In this document: positions 10,384-36,500 of the stretch, piece by piece | How positions within the stretch are numbered: the first letter of the stretch is position 1 | Layout: each line of letters starts with the position of its first letter | NCBI GenBank assembly: GCA_016841325.1 | Contig: JAENZJ010000025.1 | Location: 1 to 44,894 of the forward strand | Direction of reading: 5' to 3' | From: Thermincola carboxydiphila | GTDB lineage: Bacteria; Bacillota; Thermincolia; Thermincolales; UBA2595 | Length of the DNA stretch: 44,894 bases | Program-made: the position numbers and the translations under genes | Notes under the pieces: generated by a model | Seen by the model: only the letters and a program-made list of their open reading frames with translations | Told to the model about the DNA's origin: nothing | The model's database searches: none

Positions 10384-10404
10384 GTGAACTACAAATAAAT
10401 ATCT

Positions 10405-10560
10405 GTAACTTCTGGGTTTTTTTCAAATGGGAATCAGGTCAAGCCTGAGCGGTCTCCGCCACTGTATCCGGGGAGTGCCCTTACATGATGCCACTCGTTT
10501 AAAGGGGAAGGCGTAAGCGGCATGTTTATCCGGGAGCCAGGATACCAGCCCGGAAGTGAC
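10405..10560 (+). promoter_or_regulatory. Adenosylcobalamin riboswitch
   Basis: A cobalamin-riboswitch aptamer. Conserved pieces in order: GGGAATCAGGTC (10429-10440), the core CTCCGCCACTGTA (10453-10465), GCCACT (10490-10495), GGGGAAGGCG (10504-10513) and the B12-box GAGCCAGGATACC (10534-10546). Helix P1 closes it: CTTCTGGG (10409-10416) with CCCGGAAG (10549-10556), one G-U pair. Binding of adenosylcobalamin normally represses the downstream genes, and here those are B12 synthesis genes. The 425-base gap between the cytochrome gene and cobU holds only this element, its promoter and its hairpins. Confidence 0.93.
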
Positions 10561-10655
10561 CATACAGTCCTTCGCGAGAAAGGATTATGGTTGTTTTACA
10601 GGGGTTTTATGCCTTGATAACCATGTCCTCAGTCGCTGACTGGGGATTTTATTTT
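10559..10655 (+). terminator. Expression platform of the cobalamin riboswitch: two hairpins
   Basis: Hairpin 1: ACCATA (10559-10564) / TATGGT (10586-10591), plus TCCTT (10568-10572) / AAGGA (10580-10584), then TTGTTTT. Hairpin 2: TCCTCAGTC (10626-10634) / GACTGGGGA (10638-10646), one G-U pair, followed by TTTTATTTTG, a good intrinsic terminator. ATGGTT (10587-10592) can instead pair with AACCAT (10619-10624), which would change the folding. Attenuation before cobU is therefore likely; the exact switch is inference. Confidence 0.65.
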
Positions 10656-33251: not shown

Positions 33252-33548
33252 ATGATTGACAGGGAAACACTGAAGATGGTATTAGACCAGTACCTGTCAG
33301 GCAGGATTACCCGGGAAGAGATATCAGACTGGGCATACCAGATGATAACTGAACATGGTGAAGCTGAAGACCAACTGGTTAATGAAGTTCTCTATAATCT
33401 GGTCAGCTTTCACGATGTTGGCATGATTTTTGAACAGTACCGTCCCAGCCGGGAGAAACTGGAGTATTTTATTAACTGGCTCGAAGATGACGGTGAATGT
33501 GGCTGGGATCAATACACAGCCATGTTTGATCCGGGTAAGCTGATGTAA
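33252..33548 (+). CDS. Hypothetical protein
   Basis: 98 residues, acidic and mainly helical. The segment LDQYLSGRITREEISDWAYQM (~res 11-31, core SGRITREEIS) resembles a short helical hairpin. No domain recognised. The G-rich TTTGGGGGTG sits before ATG 33252. It is flanked by its own promoter (33184) and terminator (33561), so it is a single-gene unit. Function unknown. Confidence 0.7.
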   Translation: MIDRETLKMVLDQYLSGRITREEISDWAYQMITEHGEAEDQLVNEVLYNLVSFHDVGMIFEQYRPSREKLEYFINWLEDDGECGWDQYTAMFDPGKLM

Positions 33549-33560
33549 TAATTATACATC

Positions 33561-33591
33561 CCACTAACCTAAGGGTTAGTGGTTTATTTTT
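33561..33591 (+). terminator. Terminator after the 98-residue gene
   Basis: CCACTAACC (33561-33569), loop TAAG, GGTTAGTGG (33574-33582), then TTTATTTTTC. Confidence 0.85.
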
Positions 33592-33651
33592 CTGCAGGTA
33601 TCTGATACATTAAAGGTAATGTCGTATTATGTGATGTGGGGAGAGGTGTCT

Positions 33652-34521
33652 TTGTTGTTTGAGTCTATAGAAGATGTCAAAAAAAAGCTGACCAAACAAA
33701 ACTACCTGATTAATTACAGGGCAGCCACCGCTGTTTTCCTGGCAGTCAAACTGCAAAAGCCGCTGCTAATCGAGGGTCCTGCAGGTGTTGGAAAAACGGA
33801 ACTTGCCAAGGCTGTGGCCGGCGCTCTGGACACAAGCCTGATCAGATTGCAGTGTTATGAGGGACTGGATGAATCAAAGGCTCTTTTTGAATGGAATTAC
33901 CAGAAACAGCTGCTCCGCATACAGTCGAACCACCTGACTGACAAGACCTGGGAAGAAACCAGGGCCAATATTTTCTCTGAGGAATTTTTCCTGGCCAGGC
34001 CCTTGCTGCAGGCACTAAAGGCAGAAAATACCGTTGTCCTGCTGGTTGATGAACTGGACAAGAGTGATGAGGAATTTGAAAGTTTTCTCCTGGAGGCGCT
34101 TTCTGATTACCAGGTCTCTATCCCGGAGCTGGGCACAGTAAAGGCAAGCTCCATACCTGTAGTTGTCCTGACCAGTAACAACTACAGGGAATTGAGTGAT
34201 GCCCTGAAAAGACGGTGTATTCATTTATATATTGACTATCCTTCCTTTGAACGGGAACTTGCCATAGTAAGAATAAAAGTACCTGAGGCCAATAAGGTGC
34301 TGACTGAAAAAATTGTGCAATTTGTACAGTCACTGAGAAAAATGGTTCTGAAAAAGCCGCCCAGTATTTCCGAAACCCTTGACTGGGCCCGGACCCTGGT
34401 CTTACTGGGGGCACAATCAATTAATGAAGAACTGGTTCTGAATACAATTAATATTCTTTTGAAGTATCAGCAGGATATCAAAAAGGTAGAAGAACGGATC
34501 AGCGGTCTTCTGCCAGAATAA
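33652..34521 (+). CDS. MoxR-family AAA+ ATPase (CoxD-like)
   Basis: 289 residues from TTG 33652. The P-loop is GPAGVGKT (res 42-49); Walker B is VVLLVDELDK, then a sensor-1 TSNNYREL and an arginine-finger region (LKRRCIHLYI). MoxR ATPases act with VWA-domain proteins to mature or activate enzymes; the VWA partner is encoded next. GAGAGGTG (33641-33648) favours TTG 33652 or 33655 over ATG 33619, which precedes that site. Substrate enzyme unknown. Confidence 0.88.
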   Translation: MLFESIEDVKKKLTKQNYLINYRAATAVFLAVKLQKPLLIEGPAGVGKTELAKAVAGALDTSLIRLQCYEGLDESKALFEWNYQKQLLRIQSNHLTDKTWEETRANIFSEEFFLARPLLQALKAENTVVLLVDELDKSDEEFESFLLEALSDYQVSIPELGTVKASSIPVVVLTSNNYRELSDALKRRCIHLYIDYPSFERELAIVRIKVPEANKVLTEKIVQFVQSLRKMVLKKPPSISETLDWARTLVLLGAQSINEELVLNTINILLKYQQDIKKVEERISGLLPE

Positions 34522-34530
34522 AGCCGGGTG

Positions 34531-35967
34531 ATGACATTGGACAAAAACATCCTTCAGTTTGCTGTCCTCCTGAGGAAAGCCGGGTTAAACGTCTCTCATT
34601 CTGAGGTAAGCGAAGCCTTAAAGGCACTTGCGTTAACAGGAATGGACAAAAAAACGTTTTTTGATACTCTTTCTGCCACCCTGATTAAGGACCAGGCAGA
34701 TATGCGTGTATTTGAAAAGGTATTTGAGTATTATTTCGCCCCGGAGTTTATCAGCAGCCAACGGGACCACAGCGGCCTGTTGAGTGCCATTATCAATACT
34801 GACTCCCAATCTGTCTCCCAAAATGACTGTCAGGGGTGTGACAGGGTGCCGGGGACTGAAATAGGGAGAAGTACCGGATTTGGTCAGGGCCAGGGTTTAG
34901 CAACCGCAGCAGTTGATAATTTTGTCCAGGTTATTAAAGCAGGTATTCCAGAGGACATGTCCCGGCTGGTCAAAAGAGGGGTTGAAAGCCTCGGCAGGCT
35001 GGATGAAGAAGACCTGGAGGATATGAAGACTGCCATCAGACAGGTTAAAGTATTTCTGGAATGGAACATGGGCATTTATGAACTGGAGAAAGCCGCAGCT
35101 GACCTTGATGCAAAGACATGGCTGACCTGGCAGGAGCGCCTGAACTCTCTCGAAGACAAGCTTTACCGGGAGCTGGAAAAAAAACTGATCAATGAACTGG
35201 GCACTAAGGCACTGGAAACAGTCCTGATCAGAGAAAATCTCAACCAACTGGATTTCTACAGGCTTTCGGCCCCACAGGTTGCTGAAATCAGGAAGAAAGT
35301 CAGCAAGCTGGCCCATAAACTTGCCTCCAGGCTCTCATTCCGGTACAAGAGGTCAAACAGAGGGCAGGTTGACCTTGCCCGGACAATCAGGAAGTCAATG
35401 TCATATGGGGGTGTTCCGATCAAACCTGCCTATCGCGACAGATATCCCACCAGGCCGGAATTTGTGGTCCTCTGTGACTTATCAGGTTCGGTAAGGGTGT
35501 TCAGTGAGTTTATCCTGCAGCTTGTTTATTCAATACAGAGCAGGTATATCCATGCCAGGTCATTTGTTTTTGTAGATACCCCTGATGAAATAACCGGATA
35601 TTTTCAGAACCGGGAAATAGAAGACGGTATTAAAGATATATATAATTTGGCTAAGTTTTCCAGGACAGCGTTTTCTGACTATGGACAGGTGTTTATTGAT
35701 TTTAATGAAAAGTATTTCGATGTCCTCAACAAAAAAACCACTTTGCTTATCATCGGAGATGCGCGTAACAACTACCACAGGGAACACGCTGAATGTCTCC
35801 GCAGGATGTGTCAGCAAGTCAAAAAATCTATCTGGCTGAATCCGGAGCCCGCGGAACGATGGGACACCGAAGACAGCCTGATATCACTTTACGGCAGGTT
35901 ATGTGACCAGGTTTTCGAATGCAGGAACCTCGAACAGTTAGACAGGGCAGCCAGAAAAATTGTATAA
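34531..35967 (+). CDS. VWA-domain protein, CoxE-like
   Basis: 478 residues. The C-terminal half carries a von Willebrand A domain with the MIDAS motif DLSGS (in VVLCDLSGSVRVF, ~res 312) and the later IIGDARNNYH, as in CoxE. The N-terminal half is helical. It follows the MoxR-like ATPase by 9 bases; such pairs mature enzymes such as CO dehydrogenase in aerobes, but no cox or other target gene is nearby. Start could be GTG 34528, ATG 34531 or TTG 34537, since the ribosome binding site GGTGAT overlaps them. Confidence 0.85.
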   Translation: MTLDKNILQFAVLLRKAGLNVSHSEVSEALKALALTGMDKKTFFDTLSATLIKDQADMRVFEKVFEYYFAPEFISSQRDHSGLLSAIINTDSQSVSQNDCQGCDRVPGTEIGRSTGFGQGQGLATAAVDNFVQVIKAGIPEDMSRLVKRGVESLGRLDEEDLEDMKTAIRQVKVFLEWNMGIYELEKAAADLDAKTWLTWQERLNSLEDKLYRELEKKLINELGTKALETVLIRENLNQLDFYRLSAPQVAEIRKKVSKLAHKLASRLSFRYKRSNRGQVDLARTIRKSMSYGGVPIKPAYRDRYPTRPEFVVLCDLSGSVRVFSEFILQLVYSIQSRYIHARSFVFVDTPDEITGYFQNREIEDGIKDIYNLAKFSRTAFSDYGQVFIDFNEKYFDVLNKKTTLLIIGDARNNYHREHAECLRRMCQQVKKSIWLNPEPAERWDTEDSLISLYGRLCDQVFECRNLEQLDRAARKIV

Positions 35968-35988: not shown

Positions 35989-36032
35989 GTCGACAGATTA
36001 CGACATAACAACTGGAAATATTCTGGTATAAT
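35989..36032 (+). promoter_or_regulatory. Extended -10 promoter with possible Spo0A boxes, for the riboswitch and spo0E-like gene
   Basis: TG-g-TATAAT (36024-36032) has no good -35. In its place, on the complement, lie TGTCGTA (starting at 36005) and TGTCGAC (starting at 35995), exactly 10 bases apart, each matching the 0A box TGTCGAA at 5-6 of 7 positions. Start of transcription should be near 36039, so the boxes cover about -50 to -34, where Spo0A binds at activated sigma-A promoters. Tentative for the boxes, firmer for the -10. Confidence 0.4.
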
Positions 36033-36057: not shown

Positions 36058-36152
36058 ATATCAGTATCGAAAGGGCAAAATCAGTGAAAACTGGTGGCGC
36101 AAAACTACGGGTCTAAAGCTTAATAAATGCTATGACAGCCGGGTTACCGAAA
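36058..36152 (+). promoter_or_regulatory. Cyclic di-GMP-I (GEMM) riboswitch
   Basis: The GEMM core is clear. AAGGGCAAAA (36071-36080), then a CAGT-GAAA-ACTG stem with its GNRA tetraloop (36082-36093), then GGCGCAAAACTACGGGTCTAAA (36097-36118), and finally GACAGCCGGGTTACC (36134-36148). These align base for base with the known Vibrio Vc2 element at the GGGCAAA, GAAA, GCAAA and GGTCTAAA-type positions. Downstream lie a terminator and a Spo0E-like gene. The exact ends of P1 are uncertain. Confidence 0.9.
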
Positions 36153-36166
36153 TCAAAATGTTCCGG

Positions 36167-36206
36167 CCCGGTATCTGGTGACTGATACCGGTCAATTTTT
36201 GTTTTT
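36167..36206 (+). terminator. Riboswitch terminator before the Spo0E-like gene
   Basis: CCGGTATC (36168-36175), loop TGGTGACT, GATACCGG (36184-36191), then TCAATTTTTGTTTTTT. CCCGG (36167-36171) in its left arm could instead pair with CCGGG (36139-36143) of the aptamer's 3' end, giving an antiterminator. Ligand binding would then favour termination (an OFF switch); this direction is inference. Confidence 0.85.
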
Positions 36207-36244
36207 TAGTCAGGGACTGGGAAATGGGGAAGGGAGGATTCCTA

Positions 36245-36403
36245 ATGGATCTTGTGCAGGAGATCGAAAAAATGCAGCAGGAACTCAATACCTTGGCAGA
36301 ACAGAAAAACAACATCTTAAGTGACCCCGAAATTTACCGGCAGAGTTGTATCATTGACAATATGATTGTGCAGTTTATGAAACTCGCTGAACCTAAGGGA
36401 TAG
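36245..36403 (+). CDS. Spo0E-like aspartyl-phosphate phosphatase (short protein)
   Basis: A 52-residue protein: two helices joined by a loop, as in Spo0E/YisI/YnzD, small proteins that remove the phosphate from Spo0A~P and hold back sporulation. The signature stretch SCIIDNMIVQFMK (~res 34-46) matches the family pattern S-x-x-x-D-x-x-I-x-x-(Y/F) that contacts Spo0A. The N-terminal helix is MDLVQEIEKMQQELNTL. ATG 36245 follows GGGAGG (36232-36237). It lies alone between the riboswitch terminator and its own terminator at 36402. The family assignment is from pattern only; activity on Spo0A is inference. Confidence 0.75.
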   Translation: MDLVQEIEKMQQELNTLAEQKNNILSDPEIYRQSCIIDNMIVQFMKLAEPKG

Positions 36404-36427
36404 GCCGATCAGGCCTGTTTTTTTTTG
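36402..36427 (+). terminator. Terminator after the Spo0E-like gene
   Basis: AGGCC (36402-36406), loop GATCA, GGCCT (36412-36416), then GTTTTTTTTT. Overlaps the stop codon. Confidence 0.75.
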
Positions 36428-36446: not shown

Positions 36447-36500
36447 TTGACTATTAAATGAGTATAACTTATAATTGGGAATGAGAATACTTCTCAATGG
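36447..36500 (+). promoter_or_regulatory. feoAB promoter with Fur-box-like operator
   Basis: TTGACT (36447-36452), a 17-base spacer, TATAAT (36470-36475): a near-ideal sigma-A promoter. Immediately after it is the palindrome TGAGAA-TAC-TTCTCA (36482-36496), inside ATTGGGAATGAGAATA..., which is Fur-box-like (GATAATGATAATCATTATC type). Located at +1, it should block transcription when iron is plentiful. A fur gene lies 2.5 kb downstream. Confidence 0.7.

Follow-up and report, generated by a model that had tools for sequence, protein, structure and literature searches.

A Spo0E-type gene of Thermincola carboxydiphila is preceded by a c-di-GMP-I riboswitch aptamer and a terminator-like hairpin, and the same succession of elements occurs four times in a genome from an unrelated family of the phylum. 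The T. carboxydiphila unit lies on the forward strand of a 44,894-nucleotide contig (hereafter, the window). The original prediction, made from the letters of this DNA, had placed a c-di-GMP-I aptamer, an intrinsic terminator, and a gene of the Spo0E family at positions 36058–36403; its coordinates were correct, and each of the three elements was recovered by an independent search. We give roughly even chances to the full reading of the unit, in which a protein of the Spo0E type acts on Spo0A and is itself under riboswitch control, the switch most likely turning transcription OFF.

The aptamer, the Spo0E-like protein, and their transcript

The Rfam model RF01051 matched positions 36064–36151 (+) over its full length (1–87 of 87) with 83.3 bits, against a gathering threshold of 35 (E = 4.4e-15). 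By hand alignment with the Vc2 aptamer, the three bases that contact c-di-GMP (G20, A47, and C92 in Vc2 numbering) presumably correspond to positions 36074, 36101, and 36147. With a G at position 20, c-di-GMP is a more likely ligand than cGAMP. The aptamer was 93% and 90% identical between the window and two other Thermincola genomes, whereas the linker 3′ of the aptamer showed 27% identity to each relative and the neighboring coxE showed 77% and 76% identity to the same two relatives. This difference points to selection acting on the aptamer.

The 3.43-Mb genome contained 16 c-di-GMP-I aptamers, including the spo0E leader, together with 16 GGDEF domains, Spo0A, and three Spo0E-like genes. Inspected by eye, the genes preceded by the other c-di-GMP riboswitches included flgB and genes for Flp-pilus-like, chemoreceptor, signal peptidase, and HD-GYP proteins, as well as a gene for a surface protein with S-layer-like repeats, whose function was likewise judged by eye; an HD_5 domain was confirmed for the HD-GYP gene. 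At locus L015 (1501–1961), a c-di-GMP-I riboswitch was located approximately 180 nt ahead of a gene for a putative HU-like DNA-binding protein, an unusual target. The window also contained a cobalamin riboswitch at 10397–10567 (RF00174, 91.5 bits).

The gene following the leader (36245–36403, +) starts with ATG at 36245, behind a ribosome-binding site GGGAGG at 36232–36237 (+), and encodes 52 amino acids. The product matched the full PF09388 (SpoOE-like) profile (1–42 of 42) with 42.6 bits against a cut-off of 23 (E = 5.9e-11). The SxxxD motif, which is the signature of the Spo0E family and in which the Asp residue is critical (PMC11115286), was present as S34-C-I-I-D38, and S34, C35, I37, and D38 were invariant across nine orthologs. 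The AlphaFold model consisted of two helices (residues 3–20 and 28–48; pLDDT 91), and its best fold match in the PDB by Foldseek was the B. anthracis structure 2C0S, an aspartic acid phosphatase of the Spo0E type (TM 0.77, rmsd 1.2); the short length of the protein accounts for the E-value of 2. Comparison with PDB entries by sequence returned no match for this protein. The closest named record at the locus was that of Thermincola ferriacetica, with 87% identity across the 52-aa protein. T. ferriacetica forms spores, and none have been seen so far in T. carboxydiphila (PMC3533761).

A search for terminator-like sites identified an intrinsic terminator that closes spo0E and overlaps its stop codon (36395–36423, +), and the downstream feoA has a promoter of the form TTGACT-17-TATAAT followed by a Fur-box-like sequence (36447–36475, +), which is kept in relatives. 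Given this terminator and the separate feoA promoter, spo0E is probably transcribed as a single gene, with the riboswitch as the leader of spo0E only.

A promoter search upstream of the aptamer placed an extended −10 element, TGGTATAAT, at 36024–36032 (+), from which transcription would start at approximately 36039. The promoter sequence GGTATAAT was also found in five other genomes (G002, G004, G005, G006, and G008). Upstream of the extended −10 element, GTCGACA (35989–35995, +) and TACGACA (35999–36005, +) form direct repeats with an exact 10-bp period, and both resemble the Spo0A box TGTCGAA on the opposite strand: the reverse complement of the first, TGTCGAC, is one base off the box, and that of the second, TGTCGTA, is a near-match. 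The tandem Spo0A boxes of the abrB promoter have the same 10-bp period. Tandem pairs as good as this one occurred in 5 of 1000 shuffles at the window locus, and in at most 10 of 1000 in six of the nine orthologs, some of which carry no riboswitch. Spo0A contacts bases G2, C4, and G5 of its box (PMC3485338), all of which are present in both repeats. Since such repeats also occur in orthologs without the riboswitch, they would predate it; Spo0A feedback on spo0E may thus be ancestral and the riboswitch a later addition, and spo0E may serve as a feedback brake on Spo0A, with c-di-GMP as its gate.

Distribution of the riboswitch–spo0E pairing

Within the order, nine genomes shared the syntenic gene block p98–AAA–CoxE–Spo0E–FeoA–FeoB–zinc ribbon–Fur, in a count for which some end genes lay outside the stretches compared. 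The three genes that precede spo0E–feoAB–fur throughout the order encode a 98-aa protein, an AAA ATPase resembling MadB, and a VWA protein of the CoxE type (33252–35967 in the window). The position of spo0E between coxE and feoA was common to all nine genomes; the riboswitch was present in the three Thermincola genomes only, and no recognizable riboswitch was found at the other six of the nine orthologous spo0E loci. The pairing, whose conservation in relatives had been proposed as a check on the original prediction, was therefore kept in three of three Thermincola genomes, and its conservation across the order was rejected. The restriction of the riboswitch to three of nine genomes indicates either a gain in the Thermincola lineage or retention by this lineage alone. 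At the orthologous position in G009 (L024, 2986–3074), an aptamer-like stretch of 8.2 bits was located before a terminator-like hairpin; it is a possible decayed remnant of a riboswitch and was not counted.

Another arrangement of the two elements was observed at locus L029 (G000:C23, 4905–5281) and its orthologs L030–L033, representing five genomes of the order, in which spo0E comes first and a c-di-GMP-I riboswitch follows. The riboswitches of L030–L032 belonged to the GGC subtype (RF03167). In the loci examined for it (L029, L030, and L033), the riboswitch was followed by an HD-GYP-like gene, a probable c-di-GMP phosphodiesterase gene. These loci share both the gene family and the riboswitch family of the 36064–36403 unit but, unlike in Thermincola, the riboswitch leads the HD-GYP gene and is not a spo0E leader.

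We surveyed approximately 180 Spo0E-like loci of the phylum, taken from outside Clostridia and Bacilli proper, with a covariance model built from 19 aptamers. A genome of an unrelated family (G045) contained four aptamer–terminator–spo0E units, all confirmed by Rfam (58.5–77 bits). This genome encodes 10 c-di-GMP-I aptamers and 8 Spo0E genes, and 4 of the 10 aptamers precede a Spo0E gene, a coincidence with a chance probability of approximately 7e-9, or approximately 2e-6 when a tandem pair is counted once. The two tandem units (L197, 6569–7520) were located directly upstream of dacF–spoIIAA–spoIIAB–sigF. The remaining units were found singly at L195 (5479–8064) and L196 (5261–6473), and the genes after them were a PAS-SpoIIE-type phosphatase gene and an HD-domain gene. 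The pairing was not found at the loci searched in relatives of G045. These distributions suggest that the riboswitch–spo0E pairing arose independently at least twice. For the window genome, the chance that 1 of 16 riboswitches would precede 1 of 3 Spo0E genes was approximately 0.014, and the Thermincola case is therefore not decisive by itself. At 60 further Spo0E loci, no convincing c-di-GMP-II or other riboswitch was found ahead of Spo0E; a T-box was present in one of these stretches and a lysine riboswitch in another.

The genomic contexts also bear on the target of the protein. Under riboswitch control, the Spo0E-like protein might have a different partner in place of Spo0A, for instance another response regulator or a peptide-binding regulator, and thereby tune motility or surface growth instead of sporulation. 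In C. difficile, Spo0E represses sporulation, has RstA as a binding partner besides Spo0A, and influences motility and toxin (PMC11115286). The Thermincola gene accompanies coxE and feoAB throughout the order, not sporulation genes, and the genes led by the other c-di-GMP riboswitches of its genome, as judged by eye, relate to flagella, chemotaxis, Flp-like pili, and the cell surface. We nevertheless regard such a partner as fairly unlikely, given the intact SxxxD motif, the Spo0A-box-like repeats at the promoter, and the two G045 units that adjoin dacF–spoIIA–sigF.

Terminator, competing pairing, and switch direction

Between the aptamer and spo0E, the search for terminator-like sites identified a hairpin with a U-rich tail at 36168–36207 (+), composed of CCGGTATC, a loop, and GATACCGG. 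Its stem (36168–36191) comprises 8 bp with a folding energy of −12.6 kcal/mol, and its tail is TCAATTTTTGTTTTTT. The search returned three terminator-like sites, of which two were parts of this hairpin; shuffled sequence gave 0.4. Both stem arms were identical in all three Thermincola genomes, and the loop alone varied. The U-tracts of the leader terminator in G005 and G006 (TTAATTTATG and TAAATTTATG, respectively) were poor and weaker than that of the window.

A candidate antiterminator could form by pairing of GCCGGGTT (36138–36145, +), which is the 3′ strand of aptamer helix P3, with GGCCCGGT (36165–36172, +), a weak candidate strand that overlaps the terminator 5′ arm. In the most complete of three test versions, the Thermincola antiterminators were equaled by 163, 194, and 44 of 300 shuffles. 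In the four G045 leaders, the shuffles that captured the terminator 5′ arm equally well numbered 3, 4, 16, and 71 of 300, and the antiterminator was better than shuffles in three of the four units. Folding of the G045 leaders showed that the terminator forms when the aptamer 3′ strand is blocked. In all seven leaders, the terminator was located outside the aptamer, and its 5′ arm was able to pair with aptamer strands; this competition corresponds to the layout of an OFF switch. The direction originally predicted, in which ligand binding lowers Spo0E, was thus supported in part, by the layout and by three of the four G045 units, and found no support in the Thermincola antiterminators, which resembled shuffles, or in the U-tracts, two of three of which were poor. 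Overall, OFF appears to be the better-supported direction, and we consider it probable. Among the c-di-GMP-I riboswitches of C. difficile, Cdi1_9 and Cdi1_12 are OFF switches that act via premature termination (PMC3649979).

In an ON switch, c-di-GMP would prevent termination or expose the ribosome-binding site, so that more Spo0E is made and sporulation is held back. The sign would match that of C. difficile, in which c-di-GMP inhibits early sporulation (PMC8653836). Against this direction, the terminator and the aptamer have no sequence in common, and all seven leaders show the 5′ arm competition of the OFF layout. The weak Thermincola U-tracts would leave room for a translational mechanism, and the linker sequence TTCACCTTT of G005 and G006 might base-pair close to the Shine-Dalgarno region, which is rich in purines, but this pairing is absent from the window genome. 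We accordingly rate an ON switch as unlikely. That the riboswitch is a chance intergenic passenger without working output, or serves mainly the downstream feoAB, is very improbable: it occurs in one genus of the order only and its terminators are weak in two of three genomes, but the aptamer and hairpin stem are conserved beside a diverged linker, a terminator closes spo0E ahead of the separate feoA promoter, and G045 acquired this arrangement as well.

Proposed control of Spo0A and comparison with known systems

For an OFF switch on a Spo0E protein that acts on Spo0A, we infer ligand binding, termination, its direction, the action on Spo0A, and the role of the promoter boxes as follows. At low c-di-GMP, aptamer strands would pair with the terminator 5′ arm, permitting read-through and synthesis of Spo0E; at high c-di-GMP, the locked aptamer would free the 5′ arm, the terminator would form, and Spo0E would drop. 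Spo0E would remove the phosphate from Spo0A~P, or block the receiver domain, such that c-di-GMP would raise active Spo0A. Spo0A~P would in turn set spo0E transcription through the promoter boxes, resulting in a feedback brake releasable by c-di-GMP. A broader proposal, possible but held tentatively, is that endospore formers possess a two-input gate on Spo0A, in which Spo0A~P, through the tandem Spo0A boxes, drives the gene for its own phosphatase and a c-di-GMP riboswitch cuts this feedback, and that this wiring was recruited independently by different lineages, in one of them four times in a single genome, where two of the units adjoin spoIIA–sigF.

An OFF switch on Spo0E fits the high c-di-GMP of sporulating B. 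subtilis (cited in PMC8653836), not C. difficile, in which raised c-di-GMP decreases sporulation by inhibiting an early stage (PMC8653836). The sign in C. difficile is opposite to that of an OFF switch on Spo0E, and no such riboswitch is known in that organism.

Direct control of sporulation by c-di-GMP is known in Streptomyces only, and the route from c-di-GMP to sporulation has been described as unknown (PMC8653836); the signals that act via Spo0E are still unknown according to a 2025 review (PMC12471899). If the proposed reading is true, a riboswitch before spo0E would answer both questions in the lineages that have the unit, providing a route of c-di-GMP to endospores and a signal acting via Spo0E. 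A second messenger of surface life would then set the level of a Spo0A inhibitor, and the unit is a candidate for a direct route from c-di-GMP to the sporulation decision in endospore formers. The recurrence in unrelated families, together with the small size of the RNA and of the 52-residue protein, makes this question directly testable in vitro.

A search of the open-licence literature, with subscription papers and preprints largely outside its scope, did not find a c-di-GMP riboswitch paired with spo0E, and the pairing was absent from the titles and opening parts of abstracts of papers on c-di-GMP-I riboswitches and sporulation. The novelty that had been claimed for the arrangement fits this searchable literature, including a paper in which no C. 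difficile c-di-GMP riboswitch seems to influence sporulation genes (PMC8653836). Each component is of a known kind; we found no earlier description of the two being coupled.

The C. difficile OFF switches Cdi1_3 (flgB operon), Cdi1_9, and Cdi1_12 have the same succession of an RF01051 aptamer and a terminator, with loss of expression proposed upon ligand binding (PMC3649979). The targets of c-di-GMP riboswitches in C. difficile are motility, surface, and prophage genes, with no apparent effect of any of these riboswitches on sporulation genes (PMC8653836). The Spo0E, YnzD, and YisI phosphatases of Bacillus and the Spo0E of C. difficile are likewise small two-helix proteins of PF09388 with SxxxD, but unlike for the Thermincola unit, no control by a c-di-GMP riboswitch has been reported for the Bacillus and C. 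difficile proteins. In Streptomyces (BldD and RsiG–WhiG), c-di-GMP directly targets a developmental regulator, as it would in the unit proposed here, although the Streptomyces control operates through protein effectors, concerns exospores, and is mechanistically unrelated (PMC8653836).
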